Shown: positions 3,427-17,909 of the stretch, piece by piece
Numbering within the stretch: the first letter of the stretch is position 1
How the letters are laid out: every line of letters starts with the position of its first letter
Source of the DNA: Methylococcus capsulatus
GTDB lineage: Bacteria; Pseudomonadota; Gammaproteobacteria; Methylococcales; Methylococcaceae
NCBI RefSeq assembly: GCF_036864975.1
Contig: NZ_CP104311.1
Span: 2,359,513 to 2,423,512, forward strand
Direction of reading: 5' to 3'
DNA length: 64,000 nt
Position numbers and translations under genes: made by a program
Notes under the pieces: model-generated
What the model was told of the DNA's origin: nothing
Database searches by the model: none
Seen by the model: only the letters and a program-made list of their open reading frames with translations

Positions 3427-5076
3427 ATGGCCGTTCGAAGCGCGGCGCCTCTCGGGTTGGGAGCTTGCGACACGCTTGCGTTCCACGGTACGCCATGGTT
3501 TTTTTGTTCCCCCATGCAAGGTACAAGTTTTTCTCAACTGACCCCCATCGGCTTTCTGCAGACTTTCGTTCTGGAACTGATGCATGCCTGCGAGGAGGCC
3601 GGGCTGGCGCCTGCCGAACGCCTGATCGACCGGATTGCACGTAGTGCAGCCCGTTTTTTCGAGGAGGCTTTCCGGGAGGAATATGCCGTGGAGGGGGCCT
3701 TGGACCCCAAGCGTTATGCGGAGCTGGTCGTGGGGCTGAAAAACCATATTGGCGGCCAGTTTTCGTTGGCCTCCCGAGAGGCCGGCTGCATCCGCGTGGT
3801 GAACGAGCGCTGTCCTTTCGGTGAGGGCGTCAAAAACTCTCCGGAACTGTGCCGGATGACGTCCAGTGTGTTCGGTGGGATCGCCGCCCGGAATTTCGGT
3901 TACGCCAAAGTGACGCTGGCCAGGCGCATAGCCATGGGTGATCCCTGTTGTGAAGTCCACATCCATCTCGACCCGCGGGTCGCCGGGAAGGTGGAAGGGG
4001 CCGAATACCTCGCGCCGCCGCCGCCCTGTGACCGCCGGGCCATGGACGCGCTGCAGGCGCGCATCGACGAGCAGATGCACCGGATCTGGTGCCAGATGAA
4101 TGCCCACCGACATTCCCGCGGCTCGACCCGGCCGCCGACTATCGTCGCCAAGTCGCCGGCTATGCAGGCGGTCTTGCAGGCGATCGAAACGGTCGCCCCG
4201 ACGCCGGCCACAGTGCTGATCCATGGCGAGACCGGCGTCGGTAAGGAACTGGTGGCGCGGGCCATCCATGCCATGAGCGAGCGCTGCCAGGAGTCCTTTG
4301 TCGCGGTCAACTGTGGTGCGATTCCCGAAGGAATCGTCGAAAGTGTGCTGTTCGGCCATGAGAAGGGCGCTTTCACCGGGGCGGTCGAGGTTCACCGCGG
4401 ATATTTCGAGCGGGCGGATGGCGGCACGCTGTTCCTGGACGAGGTGGACGCGCTGACGCCGGCGATCCAGACGCGCCTCCTGCGGGTCATTCAGGAAGGT
4501 GAACTGGAGCGTGTGGGCGGGCATAAAACGCTGATGGTGGATACTCGCATCATTTCCGCCACCAATTGCGACATCGAAAAGGCCGTCGCCGAAGGCCGCT
4601 TCCGGCAGGACCTCTACTACCGGCTCAACGTGGTCAAGATCGTGATTCCGCCGCTGCGTCAGCGGCCCGAGGACTTGCCGCACCTCGTCGGCCTGATCCT
4701 CGGGCGCCTGAGCAGACGCTACGGCAAGCCCGTGAATTCGGTGAGCCCGGAGGTCATGAGCAGGCTGCTTGCCTATGCCTGGCCCGGCAACGTGCGTGAA
4801 CTGGAAAACATCCTGGAGAAGGCGGTGCTGTTCGCGCAGCCGCCGGAGATCACCGACGTGCCTCTGCCAGATGCCGATCCGGCGGTCGGCGGGCAGTCTT
4901 GGAAAGCGCTCCGCCGGCAGACGCTCGAGCGTCTCGAGCGGTCCTATCTGGAGCAGGCGTTGCGGCGCGCCCGGGGTAGCGTGAACGCAGTCGCCGAATG
5001 GATGGAACTGACGCCGAGGGCGGTATATTTGAAACTGAGCGCCTATGGCATGGACCCAGCCAAATTCCGCGGGTGA
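3427..5076 (+). CDS. Sigma-54-dependent activator with methanogen-type cysteine-rich sensor domain
   Basis: This is a 549-residue enhancer-binding protein. Residues ~45-190 form a domain with several conserved cysteines (AGCIRVV, RCPFGE, ELCRMTSS, DPCCEV). It resembles the methanogen output/MmoR-type sensor region rather than a phosphoreceiver. Then come a sigma-54 AAA+ domain with Walker A GETGVGKE (~265), the sigma-54-contacting GAFTGA loop (~313) and Walker B GGTLFLDEVD, and a C-terminal Fis-type helix-turn-helix. The start is uncertain: neither 3427 nor the in-frame ATG at 3514 has a Shine-Dalgarno. The latter fits better where the conserved sequence begins. It sits 158 bp upstream of the polyene-like cluster on the same strand and is the obvious candidate regulator. 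Confidence 0.88.
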   Translation: MAVRSAAPLGLGACDTLAFHGTPWFFCSPMQGTSFSQLTPIGFLQTFVLELMHACEEAGLAPAERLIDRIARSAARFFEEAFREEYAVEGALDPKRYAELVVGLKNHIGGQFSLASREAGCIRVVNERCPFGEGVKNSPELCRMTSSVFGGIAARNFGYAKVTLARRIAMGDPCCEVHIHLDPRVAGKVEGAEYLAPPPPCDRRAMDALQARIDEQMHRIWCQMNAHRHSRGSTRPPTIVAKSPAMQAVLQAIETVAPTPATVLIHGETGVGKELVARAIHAMSERCQESFVAVNCGAIPEGIVESVLFGHEKGAFTGAVEVHRGYFERADGGTLFLDEVDALTPAIQTRLLRVIQEGELERVGGHKTLMVDTRIISATNCDIEKAVAEGRFRQDLYYRLNVVKIVIPPLRQRPEDLPHLVGLILGRLSRRYGKPVNSVSPEVMSRLLAYAWPGNVRELENILEKAVLFAQPPEITDVPLPDADPAVGGQSWKALRRQTLERLERSYLEQALRRARGSVNAVAEWMELTPRAVYLKLSAYGMDPAKFRG

Positions 5077-5103
5077 CAGCCGTCACCGCCCCGGGGCGGC
5101 TGT
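5076..5103. terminator. GC-rich inverted repeat directly after the sigma-54 regulator
   Basis: ACAGCCG (5076-5082) pairs with CGGCTGT (5097-5103), and the interior contains the perfect palindrome CCGCCCCGGGGCGG (5086-5099). It starts on the last base of the regulator's stop codon and is followed by only a short TT. It could be a weak intrinsic terminator or a binding site for the activator upstream of the next operon. The sequence alone does not decide. Confidence 0.4.
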
Positions 5104-5136
5104 TTCCGGTAGGCTGGCCGGCGGCAAAGTATGGTC

Positions 5137-5152
5137 TGGCCTGAATCGTGCT
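5137..5152 (+). promoter_or_regulatory. Candidate sigma-54 promoter (-24/-12) before the polyene-like cluster
   Basis: TGGCCTGAATCGTGCT keeps the invariant GG and GC dinucleotides exactly 10 bases apart, as sigma-54 promoters require, with TGGC at -24 and TGCT at -12. Two positions of the wider consensus are off. It lies between a sigma-54 activator gene and the first gene of the cluster. An alternative sigma-70 -10 box, TATAAT, is at 5203-5208, but with no convincing -35. Confidence 0.35.
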
Positions 5153-5234
5153 TTCGATTGTCTGGGATTCCCGCAGTCATGCAAAATTCTTTGGGAAACC
5201 CCTATAATTTCGACTCTTTTTGTTCAAACAGCTT

Positions 5235-5540
5235 ATGTCTCATCCATTGAATCACGGAAAGATGGCGACGACGTTCCCGGACGAAACGCTCGAGCGCGAA
5301 GTGGCCGATTTGGTCATCTCCACCTTGAACCTGGATGTGAGCCCGGAGTCGGTCGATCCCGAAGCACCGCTGTACCGCGAGGGGCTGGGGCTGGATTCGA
5401 TCGACATCCTGGAGATCGCATTGGTCGTTTCCAAGCGCTACGGGTTCCAGCTGAGGGCGGACAATGAGGACAATGTCCGCATTTTCGGTTCGCTGCGCAG
5501 TCTTTGCCAGCACATCGCGGCCAACCGCGTCGAATGCTGA
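5235..5540 (+). CDS. Acyl carrier protein of the polyene-like cluster
   Basis: A small acidic protein with the phosphopantetheine attachment motif GLDSIDILEIAL; the serine carries the prosthetic group. It would hold the growing chain for the ketosynthase, dehydratase and ketoreductase encoded downstream. The start is uncertain. ATG 5235 gives 101 residues and ATG 5262 gives 92; the shorter form fits where ACP homology begins and has GGAAAG just upstream, though very close. The stop codon overlaps the ATG of the next gene. Only one ACP is visible here, whereas characterised aryl-polyene clusters commonly have two. Confidence 0.85.
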   Translation: MSHPLNHGKMATTFPDETLEREVADLVISTLNLDVSPESVDPEAPLYREGLGLDSIDILEIALVVSKRYGFQLRADNEDNVRIFGSLRSLCQHIAANRVEC

Positions 5541-6214
5541 TGTGCCGGGCGCGGTTGGCACTGTCCTGGTTCTTCGCCGGTTTTGCTCTGGCGGCCTATG
5601 CCGCATTCAATCATTACCTCACAGCCGTTCATCCGGGAAGTTCGCTGGTGGCGTGGCTCCCTCTTGCTCCGGTTGCGATGGCGGCGGGGGCTGTCGCTTG
5701 GCGGTCACGTTGGCGCTATTCGTTGGTCGGCGCCGGTGCCGGTCTGCTGGCGCTGCTGTGGTTGTCTCCGGACCGACTGGCGCCGGGCGAGAAGGTGCTC
5801 TATGTTTATCTTACCGAGCATATCGGCATCAATCTGTTCCTGGGCTGGGGATTTGGCAGTACCCTCCTGGGGGGGCGTGAGGCATTGTGCACGCGGTTCG
5901 CACGTTCGGTTCACGGTGCTCTGCCTCCCGAGGTGGAGCGGTATTCGCGTGCCGTGACAGTGGCCTGGACGGTTTTTTTCGGCGGCGTTGCGGCCGTTTC
6001 TGTGCTGCTGTTTTTCTTGGTTTCCATCGACGCCTGGTCGGTTTTCGCTAATTTCGTGAACTTGCCATTGGCGGTGGCGATGTTCGTGGCGGAATACCGC
6101 ATCCGCTTGCGGGTGCTCCCGGATTTTCCGCATGCCTCGATTCTGGCCGGTTTCCGCTCGTTCACGGCATCGTCCAGGCCCGGCGGGGCTGTCACCGAAG
6201 CGGGACGAGGATGA
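5534..6214 (+). CDS. Integral membrane protein of the polyene-like cluster
   Basis: A protein of about 226 residues made mostly of hydrophobic segments. I count six or seven likely membrane helices, for example LALSWFFAGFALAAYAA near the start and VFFGGVAAVSVLLFFLV later. Position and composition match the COG4648-type membrane protein found between ACP and ligase genes in aryl-polyene and xanthomonadin clusters. Its molecular role there is unclear. The start overlaps the ACP stop (ATGCTGATG, so 5534 or 5540), which implies translational coupling. The C-terminal ~20 residues look soluble and unstructured. Confidence 0.72.
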   Translation: MLMCRARLALSWFFAGFALAAYAAFNHYLTAVHPGSSLVAWLPLAPVAMAAGAVAWRSRWRYSLVGAGAGLLALLWLSPDRLAPGEKVLYVYLTEHIGINLFLGWGFGSTLLGGREALCTRFARSVHGALPPEVERYSRAVTVAWTVFFGGVAAVSVLLFFLVSIDAWSVFANFVNLPLAVAMFVAEYRIRLRVLPDFPHASILAGFRSFTASSRPGGAVTEAGRG

Positions 6215-6223
6215 ATCCAGCGG

Positions 6224-7564
6224 ATGCGGCAGATGGCCGATTTCCCTTTCCTGACACATCCATCCCTGGATGACACCGTTGCCTTCCGTAAGGGGCGCGC
6301 GATCACCGTCCGGGAATTTCTCGGTGAGGCCGCGGCCCTGGCTGGATGGCTGCCGGAGCGGTCCTATCTGCTGAACGACTGCGCGGACCGTTACCGATTC
6401 GCCGTGGTATTCGCCGCGGCCTTGCTACGTCGGCAGGTCAGTCTGCTGCCGCCGACCTTGACTGCGGAAACCGTGCAGCAACTCGCCGCTTCGTTCCCCA
6501 ACCTCTATTGCCTGACCGATGATCCGACCCGCGATCTGGATCTGCCGGTCTGGCTGTATCCGGAGGATTTGATCCCCCTGGGCATAGACCGGATACCGGC
6601 GGCGGATGCCGGTCAGATCGCGGCGGTCGCCCTCACTTCGGGCTCCACCGGGACGCCCGTGCCGCATGCCAAGACATGGGCGAATCTGGTGCGGAGCGCC
6701 CGTGCCGAAGGGGAACGGCTCGGAATCGCGCAAGGCCGTCACACCTTGCTCGGCACCGTGCCGGCGCAGCACATGTACGGATTCGAATCCACGGTGCTGT
6801 TGCCGCTCCAGAACGGCGCTGCGTTTTCCTCCACCCGCCCGTTCTATCCGGCGGACGTGTGCGCGGAAATCACGCAATTGCCGGGCGCCGTGGTCCTGGT
6901 CACCACACCTTTCCACCTGCGTGCTCTTTTGAACATTGATGGGAGCCTGCCACACATCGAACTGCTGGTTTCGGCCACAGCTCCTCTGGCGCCGCAGCTC
7001 GCCCAGGCCGCCGAATCCCGTTTCGGCGCGCCCCTGCTGGAAATCTACGGCTGCACCGAGGCCGGCCAGCTCGCGACCCGACGGCCGGTCGAGGGACCCG
7101 AGTGGACGGCGTTTCCCGGGGTATCCATCATCCGGGCCAAGGACGGCTTCCGGGTGCGCGGCGGTCATGTTTCGGGCGAGGTGAGGCTGGATGACGTGCT
7201 GGCACTGAAGTCCCCGCAGCGCTTCGTCTGGCTCGGGCGCTCCGGTGACCTGGTCAATATTGCCGGCAAACGCACCTCCCTGGCGTATCTGAATCACCAG
7301 ATCACTTCGATTCCCGGTGTCGTGGACGCGGTTTTCGTCATGCCGGATGAAGACTCGCTGGGGGCGGTGACCCGCCTGACGGCCTATGCCGTCGCCCCCG
7401 ACCTGACCCGTACGGGCTTGATGCAGGCCCTCCGGGAGCGGCTCGATCCCGCTTTCCTGCCGCGTCCTTTGTATCTGGTCGCCAGCCTTCCGCGCAATGC
7501 CACGGGGAAATTACCCCGAAGCGCGCTGGAGGCGTTCTCGGACAGTCTGAGGGAGGCTTCGTGA
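6224..7564 (+). CDS. AMP-binding acyl/aryl-acid activating enzyme
   Basis: A 446-residue member of the adenylate-forming family, shorter than typical acyl-CoA synthetases (~550) but normal for aryl-polyene ligases. Visible core motifs are the P-loop LTSGSTGTPVPHAK, YGCTEAG, the hinge region SGDLVNIAGKR and the C-terminal catalytic lysine in NATGKLPR. It should activate a starter acid, plausibly an aromatic acid such as 4-hydroxybenzoate, and load it on the ACP. The substrate is inferred from cluster type only. The stop codon overlaps the GTG of the next gene. Confidence 0.85.
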   Translation: MRQMADFPFLTHPSLDDTVAFRKGRAITVREFLGEAAALAGWLPERSYLLNDCADRYRFAVVFAAALLRRQVSLLPPTLTAETVQQLAASFPNLYCLTDDPTRDLDLPVWLYPEDLIPLGIDRIPAADAGQIAAVALTSGSTGTPVPHAKTWANLVRSARAEGERLGIAQGRHTLLGTVPAQHMYGFESTVLLPLQNGAAFSSTRPFYPADVCAEITQLPGAVVLVTTPFHLRALLNIDGSLPHIELLVSATAPLAPQLAQAAESRFGAPLLEIYGCTEAGQLATRRPVEGPEWTAFPGVSIIRAKDGFRVRGGHVSGEVRLDDVLALKSPQRFVWLGRSGDLVNIAGKRTSLAYLNHQITSIPGVVDAVFVMPDEDSLGAVTRLTAYAVAPDLTRTGLMQALRERLDPAFLPRPLYLVASLPRNATGKLPRSALEAFSDSLREAS

Positions 7565-7866
7565 GCACGGCCGCAGGCAGCGTCGGGTTCCAAATACCGG
7601 CAGAGCATCCGGCCTGCGACGGGCATTTTCCGGGATTTCCTGTGGTGCCCGGCGCCGTTTTGCTGGATGAGATCCTGAGCCGCCTCGAATCGGCGCTGGC
7701 GATCGATCTCTGCGGCTGGCGTCTGTCGGTCGCCAAGTTCCCGGCGCCGCTCGCGCCCGGCGCCGAGGTGTCGCTGGAATACCGGCTGGATGAGCAGGGC
7801 GCCGTCCGGTTCGGTCTCGTCTCCGATGGCCGCGCCGTCGCCAGCGGAATCCTGGTTCTCCGATGA
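7561..7866 (+). CDS. Hotdog-fold dehydratase/thioesterase, FabZ/ApeI-like
   Basis: A 101-residue single hotdog domain starting at GTG inside GTGA, which overlaps the ligase stop. The active-site-type segment HPACDGHFPGFPVVPGA is the FabZ/FabA signature, with the catalytic His and Asp region. In aryl-polyene pathways a protein of this size acts as 3-hydroxyacyl-ACP dehydratase together with a second hotdog protein; one is encoded at 15400. Its own stop overlaps the next ATG. Confidence 0.82.
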   Translation: MSTAAGSVGFQIPAEHPACDGHFPGFPVVPGAVLLDEILSRLESALAIDLCGWRLSVAKFPAPLAPGAEVSLEYRLDEQGAVRFGLVSDGRAVASGILVLR

Positions 7867-8810
7867 GCGATCCGTTCTCGCCGCGCGGGCCGGCCGCCGC
7901 CTCGCACTGGGCGGAACGGCCTGAGCGCAGCAACATGTTCTTTTTGCGGATCATGGTATGGATCTCGCTGCGGTTGGGACGGCGGGCCGGGCGCCTGGTT
8001 CTTCACCTCATCGTGATCTATTTTCTGCTATTCGCACCCAGCGCCCATCGCGCGTCACGTAACTATCTGCGCCGGGTGCTGGAGCGGCCTCCCGGGCTCT
8101 CCGACTGCTACCGCCATTTCTTCCGCTTCGCCTCGACCATTCACGACCGCGTGTATCTGCTCAACGGTGAGTTCGACCGTTTCGACATCCGTGTCATCGG
8201 CGAGGAAGTGATGGAGCAGGTTCTAGCGGAAGGGCGGGGCGCGTTTTTGCTCGGAGCGCACTTCGGCAGTTTCGAGGTGCTGCGGGCGCTGGCCAGACAG
8301 CGTCCAGGACTGGAGTCCGCGATGGTGATGTACGAGGAGAATGCCCGCAAGATCAATGCCATGCTGGCGGCCATCGCGCCCGGCCGCGGCGGCGAGGTCA
8401 TTCCGCTGGGACGGCTGGATTCCATGCTGCGCCTGCGAGAAGCGCTGAATCGTGGCAAGATCGTCGGCATGCTGGGCGATCGTAGCCTGGGTTCCGAGCC
8501 TGCCCGGCAGTTGCCGTTCCTGGGCGAGTTGGCGTACTTTCCGACCGGTCCCTTGCGGTTGGCGGCCTTGATGAAGCGGCCGGTCCTGTTGATGGCCGGG
8601 ATCCATCTGGGTGGAAACCGTTACGAGCTTCATTTCGAAAGGCTCGAGGACTTCTCCGATGGATCCGGCGACCGGTCCGAAGTAGCGGGGGCGGCTATGG
8701 CCCGCTACGTGAAACGGCTGGAGACGCTGTGCCGGCTGCATCCTTACAACTGGTTCAACTTTTTCGATTTCTGGGCCGCGGGACACGCGCGCACCGGTGG
8801 CGCAGGTTAG
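7863..8810 (+). CDS. LpxL/HtrB-family acyltransferase
   Basis: A 315-residue protein. A membrane-anchoring helix near residues 40-60 (LVLHLIVIYFLLFAP) is followed by the acyltransferase domain. The H-x4-E catalytic motif appears as GAHFGSFEVL. GDRSLGSEPARQLPFLG corresponds to the phosphate/lipid-binding block of lysophospholipid and lauroyl acyltransferases. In polyene clusters such an enzyme is thought to transfer the finished acyl chain to a membrane anchor; that is inference. Coupled by ATGA to the preceding gene. Confidence 0.83.
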   Translation: MSDPFSPRGPAAASHWAERPERSNMFFLRIMVWISLRLGRRAGRLVLHLIVIYFLLFAPSAHRASRNYLRRVLERPPGLSDCYRHFFRFASTIHDRVYLLNGEFDRFDIRVIGEEVMEQVLAEGRGAFLLGAHFGSFEVLRALARQRPGLESAMVMYEENARKINAMLAAIAPGRGGEVIPLGRLDSMLRLREALNRGKIVGMLGDRSLGSEPARQLPFLGELAYFPTGPLRLAALMKRPVLLMAGIHLGGNRYELHFERLEDFSDGSGDRSEVAGAAMARYVKRLETLCRLHPYNWFNFFDFWAAGHARTGGAG

Positions 8811-8814
8811 GTTC

Positions 8815-9396
8815 ATGGGATTTCGTTCGGGAATCACCGTCATCTGTCTGATGTTGAGCTGCGTCGCCACGGAGGTGCGGGCAGGGCCGTGGGGTGTCGC
8901 CCAACTGATGGAGGCGCTCGCCGCCAGGCATTCCGGACGGGCCGAATTCGTGGAACGAAAGTATGTCTCGATACTGACCGAACCGGTGGAATCCTCGGGT
9001 GAACTGACGTTCGTCAAGCCGGATCGGCTGGAAAAGCGGACGGTCCGGCCCGTCAGCGAACGCCTGGTGCTGGAGGGTGATCGGCTCAGCCTGGAGCGGG
9101 GCGGAGAACGCCGCAGCGCAGGATTGGATGAATATCCCGAAATCGCCGCGCTGGTGGGCAGTATCCGCTCCATCTTGCTGGGCGATCGCATCGCCCTGGA
9201 AAAGCTCTACCGTCTGTCGCTCAACGGCGACGCTGGCCGTTGGACGCTGCTGCTGGTGCCTTCGACACCGGCAGTGGCCGAACGGGTCGCCTACCTTCGC
9301 ATCGGCGGTTTTGACGGTAAGGTCGACCGGGTCGAAATCCACCTGCCCGGAGGCGACTATTCCGTGATGTCGATCCGGGAAATCGCACAGCGATGA
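8815..9396 (+). CDS. LolA-like periplasmic carrier protein
   Basis: About 193 residues with a signal peptide; likely cleavage falls after VRA near residue 24. The mature part matches the LolA/LolB-like fold used in aryl-polyene clusters: LMEALAARHSGRAEFVERKYVS at the start, SSGELTFVKPDRLEKRTV in the middle, and a C-terminal GFDGKVDRVEI strand. It is presumed to shuttle the lipid or polyene between inner and outer membrane. A GTG at 8797 would give a slightly longer product, but ATG 8815 makes the better signal peptide. The stop overlaps the exporter's ATG. Confidence 0.8.
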   Translation: MGFRSGITVICLMLSCVATEVRAGPWGVAQLMEALAARHSGRAEFVERKYVSILTEPVESSGELTFVKPDRLEKRTVRPVSERLVLEGDRLSLERGGERRSAGLDEYPEIAALVGSIRSILLGDRIALEKLYRLSLNGDAGRWTLLLVPSTPAVAERVAYLRIGGFDGKVDRVEIHLPGGDYSVMSIREIAQR

Positions 9397-11765
9397 CCGT
9401 GACGCACCGCTGGCCGCTCATCGTCTGGCTTTTGTCGCTCGGCGTGTTCGCGGTGGCGGCAGGCCGTATGAGGCTCGCGACCGATCTGTCGGCATTTTTG
9501 CCGAGCCGGCCGAGCGCAAGCGAGCAGCTCCTGATCGACCAGTTGAAAGAAGGGCCGGCCTCGCGGCTGGTCCTGATCGCCGTCGAGGGGGCGACCGATT
9601 CCGCCCGTGTTCTCATTTCCGGGCGCATGGCGGAGCGGCTCCGGCACGATGCGGAGTTTTCGGCGGTGAGCAATGGGGCGGCGGCCGAGCGCGAGCCGGA
9701 ACAACAGCTGCTGTTCCGCCGGCGTTACCTGCTGAGCCCTTCGGTGACGCCGGAGCGATTCACGGAAGAGGGACTGCGCAGTGCGGTACGCGTTTCCATC
9801 GACCGGCTCGCTTCTTCAGGGGGATTGATGACCAAGTCCTTGCTGCCGAGCGATCCGACGGGCGAACTGCTGGGCATCCTCGATCGCCTGGGGGCCGAAG
9901 CGCACCCGGAAACCGCCAGCGGCGTGTGGGTGTCACGGGACCGCCAGCGTGCGCTGCTGCTCGCTCAAATCCGCGCGGCGGGATCGGACACGGATGCCCA
10001 GGAGCGGGCGCTCGCATCCATACGCGCCGCCTTCGTCGCGGCCGTCGGGGAGGCAGGGGTGGGGGATGCCCGCTTGATCCTGTCGGGCCCCGCGGTGTTC
10101 ACTGTGGAGGCCCGGGATCGGATCAAGGGCGAGGCTATCCGCTTGTCGGCGTTCGGCACGGTCGCCGTGGCCGTTCTGCTGTTCGCCGTGTACCGCTCGC
10201 TCGCGGCGCTGCTCCTGGGCCTGGTGCCGGTGGCGACCGGCGCCCTGGCCGGTATTGCGGCCGTGAGTCTGGGCTTCGGTATGGTCTATGGGATCACCCT
10301 CGGGTTCGGGGCGACGCTGATCGGCGAGGCGGTGGACTATGCCATTTATCTGTTCGTCCAGACCGGCGAGCGGCGGCGGGAGGAGAAGGGCCCGGGCTGG
10401 TTCGACCTGTACTGGCCGACCATCCGCTTAGGGGTCATGACCTCGGTGTGTGGCGCCCTGCCTTTGGCCTTGTCGGGCTTCCCCGGTTTTTCGCAGCTCG
10501 GCGTCTATTCGATCGCCGGATTGCTGGCCGCGGCCGCCGTCACCCGCTGGGTATTGCCGAGGCTGTTGCCTCGGGGGTTCCGGATTCGCGATCTCAGCGG
10601 GGCGGGAGAGCTGCTGATTCTCTTGGTATCCAGACTGCGGCCGCTGCGGTGGCTGGTGCCGGCGGCGGCCGTGTTGGCCAGCGGGATGCTGTGGTTGCAC
10701 CGCGACAGCGTGTGGAATGAAGAGCTCAGTGCGCTCAGTCCGGTTCCACTTGAAGCCCAACGCCTGGATGCCGAGCTTCGGGCCGACCTGGGCGCGCCAG
10801 ACGCGGGTTACCTGGTCGTGGTGGGCGGGCAGGACGCCGAAGCCGCCTTGCAGGCTGCGGAACGGGTGTCGTCACATTTGGCGGCACTGGTCGAGCAAGG
10901 CGTCATCGCCGGCTTCCAGAGCCCATCCAATTACCTCCCCAGCCGGCGGACCCAAGCTCTTAGGCGCGCGGCCTTGCCGGAAGATGGCGTGCTGCGCGAA
11001 CGCTTCGCGGCGGCGGTTCGAGGGCTGCCGGTACGTCCCGGAGGTTTCGAGAATTTCTTCGCCGACGTGAAGGCCACCCGCGCGGAGCCGCTGCTGAGCG
11101 CCGAGGAGCTGCGGGGTACGCGCTTCGCGTTTGCGGTGGATTCGCTGCTGATGCGGGGCCGCTGGGGGTGGACGGCCCTGCTGCCGTTGCGTGCTCCTGC
11201 AGAAACGTCCGGGCCGGGCGTGGACGCACCCCGGATCCGTGCCGCATTGTCCGAGCTTCAGGAAGCCGTTTTCCTCGATCTGAAGGCCGAGACGGACCGC
11301 CTCTATCAGGGCTATCTGAGCGAGGCGACCCGGCTGTCCGCCGGCGGAGCGGGGGCGATCGTGCTCCTGCTGGCCCTCTCCCTGCGTTCGCCGTGGAGGG
11401 TGCTGCGGGTCTGCCTTCCGCTCGCCGCCGCGCTGGCCTTGGTCACCGCCGCGCTGGTGACGGGCGGGCATCGGCTGACCATGCTGCATCTCATCGGGAT
11501 GATGCTGGCGGTGGCGATCGGTTCCAATTACTGCCTGTTTTTCGACCGCCTCGCCCAGGCTGGCGCCACGGTCCGGCCCCGCCTGGGAAGGACCCTGGTT
11601 TCGCTGACTCTGGCGAATCTCGCCACGGTGGCCATATTCGGCCTGCTGGCCGGTTCCTCGGTGCCGGTTCTGAGCGCGATCGGGGTGATGGTGGCGCCGG
11701 GTACTTTTCTGGCCCTGGTGATTTCGGCGATGTATTGGAAACCGGACGAGGGGTGCATGCCATGA
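9393..11765 (+). CDS. MMPL/RND-type exporter
   Basis: A 790-residue transporter with two homologous halves. Each half has one N-terminal helix, a large periplasmic loop (about residues 40-245 and 430-640) and a block of five helices. The first block includes FGTVAVAVLLFAVYRSLAALLLGL and the second LTMLHLIGMMLAVAIGSNYCLFFDRL. This is the MMPL layout. In aryl-polyene loci such a protein is proposed to move the lipidated product out of the inner membrane to the LolA-like carrier encoded just before it. It overlaps both neighbours by ATGA. Confidence 0.87.
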   Translation: MTVTHRWPLIVWLLSLGVFAVAAGRMRLATDLSAFLPSRPSASEQLLIDQLKEGPASRLVLIAVEGATDSARVLISGRMAERLRHDAEFSAVSNGAAAEREPEQQLLFRRRYLLSPSVTPERFTEEGLRSAVRVSIDRLASSGGLMTKSLLPSDPTGELLGILDRLGAEAHPETASGVWVSRDRQRALLLAQIRAAGSDTDAQERALASIRAAFVAAVGEAGVGDARLILSGPAVFTVEARDRIKGEAIRLSAFGTVAVAVLLFAVYRSLAALLLGLVPVATGALAGIAAVSLGFGMVYGITLGFGATLIGEAVDYAIYLFVQTGERRREEKGPGWFDLYWPTIRLGVMTSVCGALPLALSGFPGFSQLGVYSIAGLLAAAAVTRWVLPRLLPRGFRIRDLSGAGELLILLVSRLRPLRWLVPAAAVLASGMLWLHRDSVWNEELSALSPVPLEAQRLDAELRADLGAPDAGYLVVVGGQDAEAALQAAERVSSHLAALVEQGVIAGFQSPSNYLPSRRTQALRRAALPEDGVLRERFAAAVRGLPVRPGGFENFFADVKATRAEPLLSAEELRGTRFAFAVDSLLMRGRWGWTALLPLRAPAETSGPGVDAPRIRAALSELQEAVFLDLKAETDRLYQGYLSEATRLSAGGAGAIVLLLALSLRSPWRVLRVCLPLAAALALVTAALVTGGHRLTMLHLIGMMLAVAIGSNYCLFFDRLAQAGATVRPRLGRTLVSLTLANLATVAIFGLLAGSSVPVLSAIGVMVAPGTFLALVISAMYWKPDEGCMP

Positions 11766-12574
11766 AGCCACGGCAAGCCGGGCGCTGGACGCCGTCGGTC
11801 GGCATCAAGGCGTCCATGGGTTTCCACGCGGCCGCGTCAGTGCTGGCTTTATGGCGGCCCGATGACTGGCTCGCGGCGCTAGGGGCGGTTGCTGCGAACC
11901 ATGTCTTGTTGACAGCGGCGGGGCTGTGGCCACACAGCCGGCTGCTCGGCCCCATCATCACGCGTTTGCCGGCGGCGGCGGCGGCACGCGGCGAGGTGGC
12001 CATCACCATCGACGACGGGCCCGATCCGGAAGTGACCCCCCAGGTGCTGGACATCCTGGAAGTCTACGGAGCGACGGTCACATTTTTCTGCATAGGCCGC
12101 AAAGTCCGGGAACAAGCCGAGCTTTGCGCAGAGATGGCGGCACGGGGCCATGCCCTGGAAAACCACAGCTACAGCCATAGCCATATGTTTTCGTTATGCG
12201 GGCTGAGCGGCTTCGAGCGCGAACTGCGTCTGGCGCAGGAGGCACTCACCGCGGTTTACGGAACACCGCCCCAGTTCTTCCGGGCGCCGGCGGGCCTGCG
12301 CAATCCCCTGCTCGATCCCGTCCTGGCCCGGCTGGGCCTTTCCCTGGTGAGCTGGACCCGCCGCGGCTTCGATACGCGCAGCGGTCAGCCGCGGCGCGTG
12401 CTGGCCGCGTTGACCCGGCGGCTGCGGGCCGGGGACATCCTGCTGCTGCATGACGGCAACGCCGCCCGCACCCGGGGCGGCCGCCCTGTCATTCTGGAAG
12501 TGCTGCCGCCGCTCCTCGAGGCCATCCGGCAACGGCGGCTTCGTCCCGTGACCCTGCGCGCCGCCTGCCCATGA
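11762..12574 (+). CDS. NodB-type polysaccharide deacetylase-like protein
   Basis: A 270-residue protein. An N-terminal hydrophobic stretch (about residues 15-60) anchors a NodB homology domain. Visible motifs are AITIDDGPDPE, whose Asp-Asp supplies a metal ligand and the catalytic base, HSYSHSHM with histidine metal ligands, RAPAGLRNP, and DILLLHDG near the C-terminus. The family removes acetyl groups from amino sugars. In this setting the substrate may be a sugar head group or a different N- or O-acyl bond. Both ends overlap neighbouring genes by ATGA. Confidence 0.85.
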   Translation: MKPRQAGRWTPSVGIKASMGFHAAASVLALWRPDDWLAALGAVAANHVLLTAAGLWPHSRLLGPIITRLPAAAAARGEVAITIDDGPDPEVTPQVLDILEVYGATVTFFCIGRKVREQAELCAEMAARGHALENHSYSHSHMFSLCGLSGFERELRLAQEALTAVYGTPPQFFRAPAGLRNPLLDPVLARLGLSLVSWTRRGFDTRSGQPRRVLAALTRRLRAGDILLLHDGNAARTRGGRPVILEVLPPLLEAIRQRRLRPVTLRAACP

Positions 12575-13281
12575 TCCGAGCTTTCAAACGGCTGCTCGTC
12601 GAAGTCGCCGCCGCGCCTTACCGCCGGGCGGGGCGTTTCGCCTGGCATTTCGCCCGCGGTAAGCTCAAGTCCGATCCGGTCTTCATTGCCTTGCTCGAAC
12701 GTAATCTTTTGCCAGAAAAGGCGAGGCTGCTGGATCTGGGTTGTGGCCAGGGGCTCTTGGCGTCGCTGCTCCTGGCTGCGCGCGCCTTACACGAGGCGGG
12801 TTTGTGGCCGCCGGACTGGGCGCCGCCGCCGCGGCTCGACGGCGTACGGGGCATCGAGCTGATGCCGGCCGATGTCGCTCGTGCCAGACAAGCGTTGCTG
12901 GAACGGGCCGAAATCATCGAGGGCGACATCCGCCTTGCCGACTTCGGCATTGCCGATGCCGTGGTGGTGCTGGATGTGCTGCATTACATGGCGTATCCGG
13001 ATCAGGAAACCCTCCTGCGCCGCATCCGCAACGTTCTGACTCCTCGCGGCGTGCTGTTGCTGCGGGTGGGAGATGCCGGAGCCGGGCTGCCGTTCCTGGT
13101 GAGCTTCTGGGTGGACCGGCTAGTGACTTTCCTTCGCGGACATCGCCTACCGGCGTTATACTGCCGCCCCTTGCCGGCCTGGTGCAGTCTGCTCGAAGAG
13201 CTCGGGTTCCGTGTGGAAGCGATCCCGATGAGCCAAGGAATGCCCTTTGCCAATGTGTTGCTGGCGGCCCGGTTGGGCTAG
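12571..13281 (+). CDS. Class I SAM-dependent methyltransferase
   Basis: A 236-residue methyltransferase. The SAM-binding motif I reads LLDLGCGQGLLASLL near residue 54, with IELMPADV as the acidic motif II and DAVVVLDVLHYM as motif IV. It could methylate the aryl head group (O- or C-methylation), as known for some aryl-polyenes; the exact reaction is inferred. It is followed by a 140-bp gap, the longest inside the cluster. Confidence 0.83.
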   Translation: MIRAFKRLLVEVAAAPYRRAGRFAWHFARGKLKSDPVFIALLERNLLPEKARLLDLGCGQGLLASLLLAARALHEAGLWPPDWAPPPRLDGVRGIELMPADVARARQALLERAEIIEGDIRLADFGIADAVVVLDVLHYMAYPDQETLLRRIRNVLTPRGVLLLRVGDAGAGLPFLVSFWVDRLVTFLRGHRLPALYCRPLPAWCSLLEELGFRVEAIPMSQGMPFANVLLAARLG

Positions 13282-13421
13282 TGTCTCGGCGCAAAGGGTA
13301 TGTCCAAAGACCAAGGCAAGGGTTTCGTGCACCATTTCGGGATTCGGCCGCCCGCAACCCATCGGCCCAAAATAGTTCCTCTTCCGGTCACTCCCGCCTT
13401 CGAGCGGACAATCTGCTGTCT

Positions 13422-14612
13422 GTGACGCCCCTGCTGATTTCCGATTTCACCCTGACTACCTGCATCGGGCGAGGGCGTAGAGCCACGTGCGATGCCCTGC
13501 AGCAGGGGTTGACCGGACTGGCGCCCTGCCGGTTCGAAACCGTCGCCCTGGATACCTTCGTCGGCGAGGTGGCGGGAGTCGACCAGGTCGTTATTCCCCG
13601 GCGTTTGTCCGCCTTCGATTGCCGCAACAACCGTCTCGCCCTGCTGGGTCTGAAACAGGACGGCTTCACGGAAGCGGTGCGCGAGGCGGTGGGACGGTTC
13701 GGGAGACGCCGCGTCGGGGTGTTCATCGGCACCAGCACCTCCGGCATAATGGAAACCGAGCTGGCCTACCGCCGGCGCGATCCGTCCAGCGGGGCTTTGC
13801 CGGCGGATTTCGACTACGGCGGGACCCACAACTGTTTTTCCGCCGGCGCTTTCGTCCGCGACTATTTCGGTATCGAGGGACCGGCGGTGGTGGTGTCTTC
13901 CGCCTGTTCGTCCAGCGCCAAGGTTTTCGGCAACGCCGCCCGCATGATTCAGTCCGGGCTGATCGACGCGGCCGTGGTCGGCGGCGTCGACTCGCTGTGC
14001 CTGACCACGCTGTACGGGTTCAATTCGCTGGAGCTGCTTTCGCCCCGGCCTTGCCGGCCTTTCGACGCCCGCCGCGAAGGCATCTCGATCGGGGAGGCGG
14101 CGGCTTTTGCCCTGCTGCAACGGACCCCGGACGATGCCGGACCCAAGGCCCTGTTTCTGCTCGGTATCGGCGAAAGCAGCGACGCTTATCATATGTCGGC
14201 GCCGCATCCGGAGGGCTTGGGCGCCAGGGCGGCGATCGGCGCGGCGCTGGCATCGGCCGGCTTGCCACCGGAGCGTATCGGTTACATCAACCTGCACGGT
14301 ACCGGCACCCGCGCCAACGACGCGGCGGAGGCCTTGGCCGTGCATGCGATCTTCGGCAATGCGGTAGCGTGCAGTTCCACCAAGGGGTCGACCGGCCACA
14401 CCCTGGGGGCGGCGGGGGCCGTCGAGGCTGTCATCAGCCTCTTGGCGATCCGGCACGGGTTCATGCCTGCGGGCGTGAATACGGGAATATTGGAGCGGGG
14501 ATTTGAGCTGGACTATGTCCGTTCCTGCCGCCATGGACGTCTGGAGACCGTGCTGTCGAATTCGTTCGGATTCGGCGGCTCCAACTGTGCGCTGGTGTTC
14601 GGACGGACATGA
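13422..14612 (+). CDS. Beta-ketoacyl-ACP synthase (active ketosynthase)
   Basis: A 396-residue KAS I/II-type enzyme that extends the chain by decarboxylative condensation. The full catalytic triad is visible: Cys in SSACSSSA, His in NLHGTGT and His in STKGSTGHT. The protein ends with the usual NSFGFGGSN block. The reading frame stays open far upstream (to 12741) inside the methyltransferase gene, but family homology begins at PLLISDFTLT, so the GTG at 13422 is the likely start. The stop overlaps the next gene's ATG. Clusters of this kind often have a second active ketosynthase; none is seen here. Confidence 0.88.
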   Translation: MTPLLISDFTLTTCIGRGRRATCDALQQGLTGLAPCRFETVALDTFVGEVAGVDQVVIPRRLSAFDCRNNRLALLGLKQDGFTEAVREAVGRFGRRRVGVFIGTSTSGIMETELAYRRRDPSSGALPADFDYGGTHNCFSAGAFVRDYFGIEGPAVVVSSACSSSAKVFGNAARMIQSGLIDAAVVGGVDSLCLTTLYGFNSLELLSPRPCRPFDARREGISIGEAAAFALLQRTPDDAGPKALFLLGIGESSDAYHMSAPHPEGLGARAAIGAALASAGLPPERIGYINLHGTGTRANDAAEALAVHAIFGNAVACSSTKGSTGHTLGAAGAVEAVISLLAIRHGFMPAGVNTGILERGFELDYVRSCRHGRLETVLSNSFGFGGSNCALVFGRT

Positions 14613-15409
14613 CCCTACTTCACTGCCTTATCGAAGGCATAGGCGCAATCGGCCCGGGTTTCGCCAGCCCTGAAGAATTCCGGAGGCTGATCGAGACGGG
14701 CCAGGCCGATCCCTCTGCGCCGACCCCAGTGCCGGCGCCGACCTGCCTGCCGGCGGCGGAGCGGCGGCGCGCCGGGACGTCGATCAAGCTCGCTCTGGCC
14801 GCAGGGTTGCAGGCCATGGAGGCTTCCGGCCGCGATGCCACGACCCTTGCGACAGTGTTCACCTCGTCGGGCGGGGATGGCGACAATTGCCATGTCATCT
14901 GTGAAGCGCTCGCCTCGGACGACCGGCAGATTTCGCCGACACGGTTTCACAATTCGGTACACAACGCCCCGTCCGGCTATTGGGGCATAGCGCTTGGCGC
15001 CACGGTGCCCTCGACCAGCCTGTGCGCCTTCGACGCCAGCTTCGGCGCCGGCCTCCTCGAAGCCATGGCGCAGGTTGCTCAGAGTCGCGAGCCGTGCCTG
15101 CTCATTGCCTACGACGTGCCTTACCCTTATCCACTGAGCCGCGTGCGGGCGATCGGTGGCGCCATGTGCCTGGCGCTGGCGCTGGCGCCCGAAGCCACGG
15201 CCCGGAGCGTGGCGCAGCTCACCGTGGGCTTGGGTGAGGGGCCTTGCACCGGGCTCAGCGAACCTGGCTTGGAAGCCATGCGGCGCAGCATTCCCGCCGG
15301 CCGTGGGCTGCCCTTGCTGCGGGCGCTAGCGCTTGCCGAGCCGTGTCGTCTCGTCATCGATTATCTCGATCCATTGCGTCTCGAACTGGAGGTCGCACCA
15401 TGCCGCTAG
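14609..15409 (+). CDS. Ketosynthase-like chain-length-factor protein
   Basis: A 266-residue protein resembling the N-terminal half of beta-ketoacyl synthases (PF13723 type). FHNSVHNAPSGYWGIA and TSLCAFDASFGAGLLEA match the structural core, but the catalytic Cys-His-His triad is absent or incomplete and the C-terminal half is missing. Such proteins act as non-catalytic partners (ApeC-like chain length factors) of the active ketosynthase in aryl-polyene synthesis. It directly follows the active ketosynthase with a 4-bp overlap, which suits equimolar production of a heterodimer. Confidence 0.8.
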   Translation: MTLLHCLIEGIGAIGPGFASPEEFRRLIETGQADPSAPTPVPAPTCLPAAERRRAGTSIKLALAAGLQAMEASGRDATTLATVFTSSGGDGDNCHVICEALASDDRQISPTRFHNSVHNAPSGYWGIALGATVPSTSLCAFDASFGAGLLEAMAQVAQSREPCLLIAYDVPYPYPLSRVRAIGGAMCLALALAPEATARSVAQLTVGLGEGPCTGLSEPGLEAMRRSIPAGRGLPLLRALALAEPCRLVIDYLDPLRLELEVAPCR

Positions 15410-15861
15410 ACCGAGATTGGATCGCACAGCGGATTCCCCATGCCGGCGCCATGTGCCTGTTGGATCGGGTATTGACCTGGAATGCCGAACGGTTGCGCTG
15501 TGTAGCCGTCAGCCACCTCAGTCCCGGCAATCCGCTCCGCTCGGGTGGTCGGTTGTCGGTGGTCTGCGGGATCGAGTACGCGGCCCAGGCTACCGCCGTA
15601 CACGGCGCTCTGCGATCGGCCGGAGAAGAGGATGCGCCGCGTAGCGGTTTCCTGGTCAGCGTGCGCGACGTCGAATTCCATGTGCGCCGGCTGGATACAT
15701 TGGACGGGGATCTGGTGGTCGAAGTGGAACGCCTCACCGGCGACGGAAACGATGCGCTCTATCAATTCCGTCTGCTGGCTACGGATGGCCGTGAGCTGCT
15801 GACTGGGCGTCTCGCGGTGCGGCTGGACGCGGAAGCAGGTGAAGGACGAGTAAAGCTATGA
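15400..15861 (+). CDS. Hotdog-fold 3-hydroxyacyl-ACP dehydratase, ApeP-like
   Basis: A 153-residue hotdog protein beginning at ATG 15400, preceded by a clear GGAGG at 15388-15392; upstream in-frame codons belong to the previous gene. IPHAGAMCLLDRVLTW is the dehydratase-type helix and active-site region, and CGIEYAAQATAVHGAL is the central helix. It would dehydrate the 3-hydroxyacyl intermediates made by the ketoreductase, perhaps paired with the small hotdog protein at 7561. It overlaps the ketosynthase-like gene by 10 bp and the ketoreductase gene by 4 bp. Confidence 0.82.
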   Translation: MPLDRDWIAQRIPHAGAMCLLDRVLTWNAERLRCVAVSHLSPGNPLRSGGRLSVVCGIEYAAQATAVHGALRSAGEEDAPRSGFLVSVRDVEFHVRRLDTLDGDLVVEVERLTGDGNDALYQFRLLATDGRELLTGRLAVRLDAEAGEGRVKL

Positions 15862-16577
15862 GGCAGGCCCTGGTCAGCGGCGGCAGTGGGGGCATCGGCG
15901 CGGCGATCTGCCGCCGGTTGGCCGCCGACGGCCTGCACGTCTGGGTGCATTACCACGGCCATCGCGAGTCCGCGGAACAGGTCGTGGATTCGATACGCCA
16001 TGCCAGCGGCAGCGCCACAGCGATCGGCTTTGACGTTTGCGACGCGGCGGCGGTCGCTGAGGCCATTGGTACGATGTGTGCGGAGCGGCCCATCCAGGTA
16101 CTGGTGAACAACGCCGGTATCCACGACGACGCCGTGTTTCCGGCGATGGGAACCGCCCAATGGCAACGGGTCATCGACGTTTCACTGAATGGCTTCTTCA
16201 ACCTCACCCAGCCGCTGGTCATGCCGATGATCCGCGAGCGCTGGGGCCGGATCGTCAACATTTCCTCGGTGGCAGCACTCACCGGCAACCGCGGCCAAGT
16301 CAACTATTCCGCCGCCAAAGGCGCATTGCATTCGGCCACCAAGTCCCTGGCGTTGGAACTCGCCAGCCGGGGCGTGACCGTCAACGCCGTGGCGCCGGGC
16401 ATCATCGAAACCGGCATGGCGGAAGGCGTGTTCGACCGGGTGGCTATTGAACGCCTGGTGCCCATGAAGCGGGCCGGCCGGCCGGAAGAAGTGGCCGATC
16501 TGGTGGCGTTCCTGGCCTCCGACCGCGCCGCATATATCACCGGGCAGATCATCTCCATCAACGGCGGCATCATCTGA
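15858..16577 (+). CDS. 3-ketoacyl-ACP reductase, FabG-like SDR
   Basis: A 239-residue short-chain dehydrogenase. The nucleotide loop is GGSGGIGAAI. LVNNAGIHDDA holds the NNAG motif, NISSVAA the catalytic serine, and YSAAKGA the catalytic Tyr and Lys. It ends ITGQIISINGGI, as FabG proteins do. It should reduce the 3-keto group with NADPH during polyene chain building. It is the last recognisable biosynthetic gene of the cluster and lies 10 bp before an antiporter gene on the same strand. Confidence 0.88.
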   Translation: MRQALVSGGSGGIGAAICRRLAADGLHVWVHYHGHRESAEQVVDSIRHASGSATAIGFDVCDAAAVAEAIGTMCAERPIQVLVNNAGIHDDAVFPAMGTAQWQRVIDVSLNGFFNLTQPLVMPMIRERWGRIVNISSVAALTGNRGQVNYSAAKGALHSATKSLALELASRGVTVNAVAPGIIETGMAEGVFDRVAIERLVPMKRAGRPEEVADLVAFLASDRAAYITGQIISINGGII

Positions 16578-16586
16578 AGGGCATCC

Positions 16587-17867
16587 ATGAGCACGTCCCC
16601 CGCGACCACCGTGTCGGTCCACGCGGCCGAAACCCTGCTGTTCTTCACCTTGCTGCAACTCGCCGTCATCGTGCTGATCGGGCGGCTCGGCGGCGCCCTG
16701 GCCATTCGCGCCGGCCAATCTCCGGTGGTCGGCGAGATTCTCGGCGGCGTCGTCTTGGGGCCTTCCCTGTTCGGATTGCTCTGGCCCGACATCTTCACAT
16801 TCGTGTTCCGCTCCGCCCCGCCCGAACCGCTCACCATCCTCTCGCAGCTCGGCCTGATCCTGCTGATGTTCCAGATCGGACTCGAATTCGATTTTTCTCA
16901 TCTGAAAGAAAGGCGCAACCGCCGCGCGGTCCGCAACGTGGCCCTCGCCGGCCTGCTGTTGCCGTTCGCGCTAGGCTTCGGCTTCGGCTATCAGACCGCG
17001 CCGCTGCTGTCGCCCGAGGCCGACCGCATCGCTTCGGCGCTGTTCGTCGCCACGGCTTTTTCGATCACGGCCCTGCCCATCCTGGGGCGGATCATGATCG
17101 AATTCGGTATGACCGACCACAAACTTGGCGTCATCGCCATCAGCGTGGCGGCGATCAACGACGTGGTAGGCTGGCTGCTGCTGGCCGTGGTCACCGCGCT
17201 GACCGTTGCCGCATACTCCCATGCCGAATTCGCGCTCAAAGTAGGGCTGGTCGCCGCCTTCGTCGGGCTGAGCTGGTTCGTGGCGCGGCCGGTGATGAAG
17301 TGGCTGGTGCGGCGGCTGCATAAAGCCGGAGCCGGGCTGACGGGCAACCAGCTTGGTGTGCTGCTGGCCGGGATATTCCTCGCCGGCATATGCACCTACA
17401 AACTAGGGATCTTCGCGATCTTCGGCGGCTTCATGATGGGCGTGCTGCTGCATGACGAAGCGGAACTACGCGCAGCTTGGAAGGACAGGGTAGGGCACTT
17501 CGTCACAGTGTTCTTCCTTCCCATCTTCTTCACCTACACGGGTTTGCGCACCGAGATCGGCGGTTTGGACACCCTGCAGCTATGGGGCTGGTGCGCTCTC
17601 GTCATCCTGCTGGCCACCATGGGCAAGTTCGGCGGTGCTTACCTCGCCGCGCGCCTGTCAGGACTCGATCGCCACGAATCGGCCATTCTGGGCATCATGA
17701 TGAATACCCGCGCCCTCATGGAACTGATCGTGCTCAACGTTGGCTACGACCTCGGCGTGATCTCCCGCAACGTCTTCACCATGCTGGTGCTGATGGCGAT
17801 CGTCAGCACGGTTCTGACCACCCCCTGTTTGAGGGCTTGGTTGCCGAAGACCGCACCTGAGGCGTGA
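16587..17867 (+). CDS. Kef-type (CPA2) cation:proton antiporter
   Basis: A 426-residue membrane protein with about 12 helices. The family hallmark is SPVVGEILGGVVLGPSLFG near residue 45, the substrate-path helix, with further conserved blocks FQIGLEFDF and ATAFSITALPILGRI. There is no C-terminal TrkA-N nucleotide-binding domain, so it corresponds to the antiporter core only. It starts 10 bp after the ketoreductase stop and might share its transcript. A role in the polyene pathway is not expected. Confidence 0.85.
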   Translation: MSTSPATTVSVHAAETLLFFTLLQLAVIVLIGRLGGALAIRAGQSPVVGEILGGVVLGPSLFGLLWPDIFTFVFRSAPPEPLTILSQLGLILLMFQIGLEFDFSHLKERRNRRAVRNVALAGLLLPFALGFGFGYQTAPLLSPEADRIASALFVATAFSITALPILGRIMIEFGMTDHKLGVIAISVAAINDVVGWLLLAVVTALTVAAYSHAEFALKVGLVAAFVGLSWFVARPVMKWLVRRLHKAGAGLTGNQLGVLLAGIFLAGICTYKLGIFAIFGGFMMGVLLHDEAELRAAWKDRVGHFVTVFFLPIFFTYTGLRTEIGGLDTLQLWGWCALVILLATMGKFGGAYLAARLSGLDRHESAILGIMMNTRALMELIVLNVGYDLGVISRNVFTMLVLMAIVSTVLTTPCLRAWLPKTAPEA

Positions 17868-17909
17868 ACCCAGGGGAGCGAGGATGAGAGCGTCCCACGG
17901 CGTGATGAA

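Follow-up and report, generated by a model that had tools for sequence, protein, structure and literature searches.

A probable xanthomonadin/arcuflavin-type aryl-polyene-lipid pathway of Methylococcus encoded at two loci

Background

A run of aryl-polyene-type genes lies at 5262–16577 of a 64,000-nt stretch of the Methylococcus capsulatus chromosome (hereafter the window; NCBI RefSeq assembly GCF_036864975.1, contig NZ_CP104311.1, positions 2,359,513 to 2,423,512 of the forward strand), and its closest described counterparts, cited throughout from extracts of the respective articles, are the arcuflavin genes of Azoarcus sp. BH72, the xanthomonadin genes of Xanthomonas together with the pigment genes of Lysobacter enzymogenes, and the ape cluster of Escherichia coli CFT073. 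Judging by gene content, most of a xanthomonadin/arcuflavin-type aryl-polyene-lipid pathway is very probably encoded in the window and the rest at a second locus; on the best reading, Methylococcus would use it to make, from 3-hydroxybenzoate, an aryl-polyene lipid that is xanthomonadin-like and probably halogenated.

The arcuflavin set (arcA–arcX; gene list in Table 1 of PMC3949708) shares with Methylococcus a halogenase, chorismatase, acyltransferase, glycosyltransferase, antiporter, reductase, dehydratase, half-length ketosynthase, ketosynthase, methyltransferase (arcM), PS-deacetylase (arcN), exporter, LolA, acyltransferase, dehydratase, AMP-ligase and acyl carrier protein (ACP). As in Methylococcus, the parts occupy two unlinked loci, and insertion in either of them (arcK or arcT) renders strain BH72 colourless (PMC3949708). 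Xanthomonadin clusters have a single ACP (PMC8253772), and the Lysobacter genes include a single active ketosynthase with a half-length partner; these systems also share with Methylococcus two dehydratases, LolA, an exporter and a XanB2-type enzyme (PMC3691225). Lysobacter is described in that article as lacking a halogenase, which Methylococcus has, and the word ‘deacetylase’ is absent from its text. Beyond Xanthomonas, Steroidobacter cummioxidans 35Y makes a dibrominated xanthomonadin (PMC5979037). Azoarcus was compared through its published gene list and Xanthomonas through descriptions.

The E. coli CFT073 cluster (apeA–R, our locus L007; gene letters after PMC8253772) keeps a second ACP (F), ApeR, K, N, A, B and D in one place, plus ApeJ, a fusion of family 2 glycosyltransferase (GT2) and LpxL-type acyltransferase, and there is no deacetylase, halogenase, chorismatase or antiporter among its annotated ape genes. 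The structure of the Xenorhabdus aryl-polyene lipid is stated as solved in PMC8253772 and cited as a preprint in PMC9177418. Among methanotrophs, genome mining found aryl-polyene clusters to be dominant in Methylococcaceae (PMC11964084), so that such clusters are already known in the family; in the available text of that study the xanthomonadin type is not separated from other types, a second locus is not mentioned and the word Methylococcus does not occur. The proposed xanthomonadin-type pathway in Methylococcus and its second locus are what the present analysis adds.

Results

A conserved run of thirteen genes in the window

Open reading frame and family searches of the window placed 13 same-strand genes at 5262–16577, followed by an antiporter gene that is probably the last of the run:

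5262..5540, plus strand: acyl carrier protein, ApeE/ArcV-like (NF006617 PRK09184, 145 bits, cut-off 70; 47% to E. coli ApeE)
5540..6214, plus strand: COG4648-like membrane protein, ApeG-like (ApeG match weak, E 4e-4 over 44 residues)
6224..7564, plus strand: AMP-ligase, ApeH/ArcT-like, predicted hydroxybenzoate:ACP ligase (PF00501 1e-20; ApeH 26%, E 2e-20)
7561..7866, plus strand: hotdog dehydratase subunit, ApeI/ArcS-like (no Pfam match; ApeI 35%, E 7e-8)
7863..8810, plus strand: LpxL-type acyltransferase, ArcR-like (PF03279 9e-17; 31% to ApeJ residues 236-549, the C-terminal half, E 8e-43)
8815..9396 (alternative start 8797), plus strand: LolA-like periplasmic carrier, ApeL/ArcQ-like (PF19574 LolA_3 2e-19; NF053544 LolA2_flexi under cut-off)
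9393..11765, plus strand: MMPL/RND exporter, ApeM/ArcP-like (PF03176 3e-11; ApeM E 7e-16)
11762..12574, plus strand: NodB-type (CE4) deacetylase, ArcN-like (PF01522 4e-28; all four searched motifs in the window protein)
12571..13281, plus strand: S-adenosylmethionine-dependent methyltransferase, ArcM-like (PF13489 3e-10; without ApeB match)
13422..14612, plus strand: active ketosynthase, ApeO/ArcK-like, GTG start (NF006618 (PRK09185), 543 bits, cut-off 407; ApeO 42%)
14609..15409, plus strand: half-length ketosynthase partner (chain-length factor), ApeC/ArcJ-like (PF13723 6e-27; ApeC 29%, E 1e-13)
15400..15861, plus strand: second hotdog dehydratase subunit, ApeP/ArcI-like by position (no Pfam match; present at 57 of the 58 full-flank loci defined below)
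15858..16577, plus strand: 3-ketoacyl-ACP reductase, ApeQ/ArcH-like (NF004200 FabG, 364 bits, cut-off 273; ApeQ 46%)
16587..17867, plus strand: CPA2 Na+/H+ antiporter, ArcG-like (PF00999 3e-55; 9 bp 3' of the reductase)

The cluster thus contains a dedicated ACP, AMP-ligase, ketoreductase, two hotdog dehydratases, and LolA and MMPL export proteins. An earlier sequence-only reading of this DNA had described an aryl-polyene-type cluster in a methanotroph, which is borne out by the NF006618 and NF006617 scores over their cut-offs and by the ApeO/ApeC-type pair; the ‘twelve consecutive genes’ that it counted are all present, but number 13, as many as it names. The ACP start is uncertain, having been set at 5235 in that reading and at 5262 by the genus alignment. 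The COG4648-like membrane protein had zero Pfam or NCBIfam matches, is kept in the genus and occurs at 43 of the full-flank loci, while the deacetylase has a single N-terminal hydrophobic segment at residues 36-57 by hydropathy.

Overlaps of 4 bp are present at seven of the 12 junctions (AMP-ligase/first dehydratase, first dehydratase/LpxL-type, LolA/MMPL, MMPL/deacetylase, deacetylase/methyltransferase, ketosynthase/partner and second dehydratase/reductase), in line with the statement in the sequence-only reading that most genes are so joined. The remaining junctions measure -1 (ACP/membrane protein), +9 (membrane protein/AMP-ligase), +4 (LpxL-type/LolA, with the ATG start), -10 (partner/second dehydratase) and +140 bp (methyltransferase/ketosynthase, 13282-13421), the last being the widest gap of the run. 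Gene order is constant across the genus, but tightness of packing is not. The order of the 13 genes is identical in four of five other genomes of the genus, which places the run beyond chance; in the fifth, draft G014, the stretch from LolA to the reductase is on one contig that ends inside LolA, with the AMP-ligase on another contig. In all five of the other genus loci the antiporter lies 3' of the reductase; the distance is 18-46 bp in three of them and 309 bp and 2615 bp in the remaining two.

In the five other genomes, the methyltransferase/ketosynthase junction spans 142, 807, 1144, 2041 and 6809 bp, and its larger gaps hold open frames, on the opposite strand in two (L040, L041). The single long transcript proposed earlier is therefore doubtful at this junction (140-6809 bp in the genus), and the run is better seen as two parts, ACP to methyltransferase and ketosynthase to antiporter. 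This variable spot corresponds to L040 6771-8811, L041 6967-8110, L042 7151-7957 and L043 7194-14002; the gap in L040 holds a 640-aa opposite-strand frame, and that in L043 two frames of ~800 aa with repetitive stretches, L043 also having an additional copy of the methyltransferase C-terminus.

Compared with the known systems, the window has homologues of E. coli ApeE, G, H, I, J (C-terminal half), L, M, O, C and Q, their order being largely that of E. coli except for C, and its parts recur in the Azoarcus arc list. The 13 cluster proteins gave no significant best-partner match to ApeA, B, D, F (better to E), K, N, P or R. The antiporter stands 3' of the reductase as arcG stands 3' of arcH in Azoarcus, where the methyltransferase and deacetylase are at one locus and the ketosynthase at the other (PMC3949708); the break falls at the junction that is the 140-bp gap of the window. 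In Methylococcus these two groups are joined, and the halogenase, chorismatase, acyltransferase and GT2 stand apart instead.

Ketosynthase pair and other ketosynthases of the genome

The ketosynthase retains Cys-His-His (ACSSS, LHGTGT, GHTLG), whereas its 266-aa partner, encoded by the adjoining gene, has no Cys at the aligned active-site column; one ACP, one active ketosynthase and a catalytically incomplete partner had been described for the cluster before, and its content agrees. Against solved structures, the ketosynthase matched 6qsp_A (E 7e-81) and 7f28 chain B (2e-72) best, then FabF-type enzymes from 2e-53, and the only solved matches of the half-length partner at E 0.01 were 7f28_A and 6qsp_B, the partner chains of those two. 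We take 6qsp and 7f28 to be ApeO-ApeC complexes, the match tables giving general names. The assignment of the ketosynthase and its partner to the aryl-polyene ApeO/ApeC kind, and not to the ordinary fatty-acid enzymes whose families the earlier reading had named as a counter-case, is supported by these matches.

The whole genome (3,432,651 bases, one contig) has five PF00109 matches and one PF13723 partner. The PF00109 set comprises the window's ketosynthase, one adjoining the main ACP and a KAS III gene, FabB next to FabA, an enzyme of the PRK06333 family with a passing score for the fabF model as well, and a type I polyketide synthase; the last is a ketosynthase domain in a 2967-aa open frame at G000:C1 ~2342545 (minus strand), ~16 kb left of the window. 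PF00550 gave five matches, including two small free-standing ACPs, one in the cluster and the other next to genes of fatty-acid synthesis. The sequence-only reading had suggested looking for another aryl-polyene ketosynthase or ACP in the genome; none was found, and by context none of the five PF00109 matches is ApeR-like. The PRK06333 enzyme could conceivably serve as initiator ketosynthase.

Within the genus, the ketosynthase is 88% identical to that of M. capsulatus str. Texas (L012, L088), whose ketosynthase is in turn identical to that of genome G010. All three active-site patterns were present in 73/117 aligned ketosynthase rows; the other 44 lacked at least one, through either true loss or over-strict regular expressions. 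In the ketosynthase tree, the genus groups with gammaproteobacterial metagenome-assembled genomes (MAGs) and, as adjacent clade, the Steroidobacteraceae locus L096 (support 85, not starred), separate from 16 other rows of the family. Holding the 26 family rows together was not rejected (approximately unbiased test, p = 0.152, for a group chosen after the tree was viewed), which makes horizontal gain of the cluster by Methylococcus no more than a possibility.

A second locus with halogenase, chorismatase, acyltransferase and glycosyltransferase

Searching the genome with the GT2 and ApeD-like acyltransferase that flank the cluster in other genera revealed a second locus ~338 kb from the window cluster (stretch L087 = G000:C1:2706000-2724000, minus strand), in the order halogenase - chorismatase - acyltransferase - GT2:

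L087 12056-10731, minus strand: flavin halogenase (PF04820; GWFWFIP; Protein Data Bank (PDB) flavin halogenases including PltA, best E 1e-58)
L087 10731-9694 (G000:C1:2715693-2716730), minus strand: chorismatase (PF21168, 142 bits, cut-off 27; start overlaps the halogenase stop)
L087 9697-8918, minus strand: PlsC-type acyltransferase (ApeD 32%)
L087 8921-8154, minus strand: GT2 (ApeJ residues 9-242, 41%)

This order is identical in 6/6 genomes of the genus; where the genome is a single contig (four cases), the distance between locus and ketosynthase runs to hundreds of kb, and in both drafts the two are on different contigs. The two Methylococcus loci are tied together by the GT2 of the second locus and the LpxL-type protein of the window, which are one fused protein, ApeJ, in E. 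coli. Halogenase and chorismatase lie inside the cluster region in seven sampled loci of other genera of the family (L052-L056, L061, L062), with GT2 and acyltransferase also within it at L055, L056, L061 and L062. The chorismatase matches FkbO and Hyg5-type solved structures (5ag3/5a3k, which we take to be Hyg5); by eye, its catalytic Glu is kept, and at two positions where FkbO has Ala it carries Gly and Cys, as Hyg5 does. The probable role of the second locus is to supply the aromatic head, halogenate it and contribute to the lipid anchor.

Co-occurrence of these genes among relatives

Near relatives are described here by 80 loci, the best 80 of at least 582 confirmed ketosynthase relatives (at least 593 pattern matches in a scan of the species-genome collection) ranked by ketosynthase likeness, which include Burkholderiales, Rhodocyclales, Nitrosomonadales, Chromatiales, a Steroidobacteraceae MAG and others. 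Frequencies use the 58 loci with at least 21,000 bases (‘full-flank’; one of them is M. capsulatus Texas), 22 short-flank loci being left out; as profiles were built from the same loci and gave spurious overlapping-frame ‘CLF’, ‘dh2’ and ‘MT’ labels, presence alone was counted.

The NodB-type deacetylase was present at 54/58 full-flank loci, methyltransferase and GT2 at 44 each, PlsC-type acyltransferase at 40 and an ApeR-like ketosynthase at 10. Within 10 kb of the ketosynthase, a chorismatase was found at 31/58 loci and a halogenase at 27/58 with at least 300 bits, or 38/58 including 11 weaker matches; the antiporter was found at 13/58 with at least 300 bits, or 25/58 including 12 weak ones. 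Exactly one ACP was detected by profiles at 45 loci, two at five and none at eight. Across all 80 loci, the deacetylase was present in 73; in 67 of these the MMPL gene immediately preceded it, and the next gene was the methyltransferase (49) or ketosynthase (18). All four NodB motifs were present in 64/86 rows and at least one failed in 22, through either true loss or over-strict regular expressions. The window cluster is a standard form among its near relatives.

In 38 genomes of the family, split at 49% ketosynthase identity, a chorismatase was present in 24/26 with this ketosynthase type and in 1/12 without (p = 7e-7 in Fisher test, which ignores relatedness). The chorismatase match of genome G012 (L196, G012:C1:292650-293678) runs across one TAG, which may mean no more than a truncated C-terminus. 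Additional lineages of aryl-polyene cluster occur in other Methylococcaceae (L057-L060, L063-L070), a number of them having ApeR, ApeK and two ACPs, and some genomes of the family carry two or three aryl-polyene clusters.

Regulation and neighbouring genes

Two features precede the ACP gene:

3427..5076, plus strand: sigma-54-dependent activator with N-terminal MetOD1 domain (Pfam Sigma54_activat 1e-69, MetOD1 1e-13)
5137..5152, plus strand: candidate -24/-12 (sigma-54) promoter-like element TGGC-N7-GTGC, between the activator and the ACP gene

The activator is upstream in 4/4 other genus loci that reach so far, and among the full-flank loci it was seen in that of M. capsulatus Texas, of the same genus, with only a 120-bit partial match in L133 besides. 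It likely regulates the cluster; in Azoarcus the neighbouring regulator is a two-component pair (PMC3949708). TGGC, GTGC and their spacing are kept in five distinct genus sequences (alignment, by eye), and this conservation is what suggests the element, since the bare pattern is common: the sigma-54 consensus with three mismatches was found 146 times in the window against 151 expected, with no excess. Sigma-70 promoter and terminator scans of 4900-18300 gave no excess over shuffles.

Beyond the antiporter, the minus strand carries esterase and acetyl-xylan-esterase-like genes (18599-20352) adjoining a single-module non-ribosomal peptide synthetase with condensation, adenylation, carrier and thioesterase domains (20294-24253).

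Discussion

Proposed pathway

As clusters of this kind go, the gene set appears ordinary, and with the second locus included the pathway appears complete. Chorismatase would convert chorismate to 3-hydroxybenzoate, which the AMP-ligase would load onto the single cluster ACP; the ketosynthase and its half-length partner, with the reductase and hotdog dehydratase pair, would extend it with malonyl units to a conjugated polyene. These starter, ligase and extension steps are assigned by homology to characterised enzymes. Halogenase and methyltransferase may then decorate the aromatic head. The lipid anchor may be built by the GT2 and PlsC-type acyltransferase, from the second locus, together with two window enzymes, the NodB-type deacetylase and the LpxL-type acyltransferase: GT2 would form a lipid-linked N-acetyl sugar, the deacetylase would free its amine and the LpxL-type enzyme would attach the polyene. 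MMPL exporter and LolA-like carrier would take the lipid to the outer membrane, where it may quench reactive oxygen and light. An aromatic ammonia-lyase as the source of the starter was considered and set aside, there being zero PF00221 matches in the genome.

The amino-sugar step is the least certain and least known part of this pathway. A lipid-linked amino sugar is suggested by the CE4 deacetylase together with a GT2 weakly like DPM synthase and ArnC, and the Xenorhabdus aryl-polyene lipid presumably has a glucosamine core. It is possible, if rather doubtful, that the halogenated polyene is anchored through an ArnC/ArnD-like or Nod-factor-like amino-sugar lipid, N-acylated by the LpxL-type enzyme straight from the ACP, the genus having split the pathway into two loci, one of them beside a sigma-54 activator.

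Several observations weigh against the proposed pathway or parts of it. The chorismatase scored under the TIGR04444 cut-off (E 3e-72, 243.5 bits, cut-off 325), and of the Gly, Gly, Cys signature of CH-II (3-hydroxybenzoate-type) chorismatases (PMC7170507), mapped via Hyg5 numbering, it keeps one Gly and the Cys but has Ala in place of the other Gly, so that its product is not certain. UbiC is encoded in the genome, making 4-hydroxybenzoate available as starter. G024 and G029 (L044, L045), with ketosynthases 65-66% like that of the window, have no chorismatase match in their genomes, and their starter must come from elsewhere. About half of the 58 loci have a weak halogenase match or none, which means that halogenation is no constant of the branch. 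The likeness of the GT2 to DPM synthase (E 5e-6) and ArnC (4e-4) is weak, with PpgS under cut-off; the second hotdog protein has no significant ApeP match and is placed by position and conservation alone; and no thioesterase (ApeK) or ApeN match was found among the cluster proteins. In the literature covered, which did not extend to subscription papers or preprints, no account of a xanthomonadin-type pathway or pigment in Methylococcus was found.

Alternative readings

With UbiC in the genome and homologues of the ACP, ligase, ApeO, ApeC and ApeQ in the cluster, the locus could be an E. coli/Xenorhabdus-type aryl-polyene cluster using 4-hydroxybenzoate, with a reduced set and a shortened polyene, but we consider this unlikely. 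ApeA, B, D, F, K, N and R are unmatched among the cluster proteins, the genome's five PF00109 matches and single PF13723 partner include no ApeR adjoining the cluster, and deacetylase, methyltransferase, antiporter, halogenase and chorismatase are together the arcuflavin set. The sequence-only reading had come close to this view, calling the set reduced, the deacetylase an addition and the product a shortened or altered polyene, having taken the E. coli/Xenorhabdus branch for comparison. In the xanthomonadin/Lysobacter/arcuflavin branch, a single ACP and a single ketosynthase with a half-size partner are usual, as the ACP counts above illustrate, and the deacetylase, found at nearly all near-relative loci, has its counterpart in the Azoarcus set (arcN; PMC3949708). 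A reduced or augmented set being unsupported, so is a shortened or altered product, and the number of ACPs or ketosynthases says nothing on chain length.

A dedicated fatty-acid-like, non-polyene lipid, for instance an unusual saturated or hydroxylated outer-membrane acyl chain, would suit core enzymes that are all kin of those of type II fatty-acid synthesis, and an enoyl reductase encoded in the genome, which was not searched for, could act on it. This seems very unlikely: the ketosynthase pair groups with ApeO/ApeC, fatty acids are already served by FabB-FabA, the PRK06333/FabF-type enzyme and the ketosynthase beside the main ACP, and halogenase and chorismatase co-occur with this ketosynthase type.

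An arcuflavin/flexirubin-like hybrid, in which the polyene acid is esterified to a dialkylresorcinol, is the most improbable reading in spite of a gene content closest to Azoarcus arcuflavin, since the sole KAS III (PF08541) match of the genome adjoins the main ACP and ketosynthase, leaving no candidate for DarB, which we take to be KAS III-like, and no resorcinol ester to be expected; in contrast to Azoarcus, Methylococcus thus appears to lack dialkylresorcinol (DAR) genes, judged by that one match, DarA not having been searched for.

Implications

As a single ACP, a single ketosynthase and a deacetylase are usual for such clusters, the interest of the xanthomonadin/arcuflavin-type pathway proposed here lies in the second locus and its predictions. 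The regular company of NodB-type deacetylase and GT2 allows the anchor chemistry of this branch, so far unsolved, to be tested in a laboratory organism that is not a pathogen, and if the amino-sugar anchor is true, the deacetylase would be the signature of pigment lipids with an amide-linked anchor throughout a beta/gammaproteobacterial branch. If the pathway is as proposed, ‘aryl polyene’ calls made by genome mining in methanotrophs would need dividing by starter and halogenation, and methanotrophs of this genus would possess an aryl-polyene membrane antioxidant.

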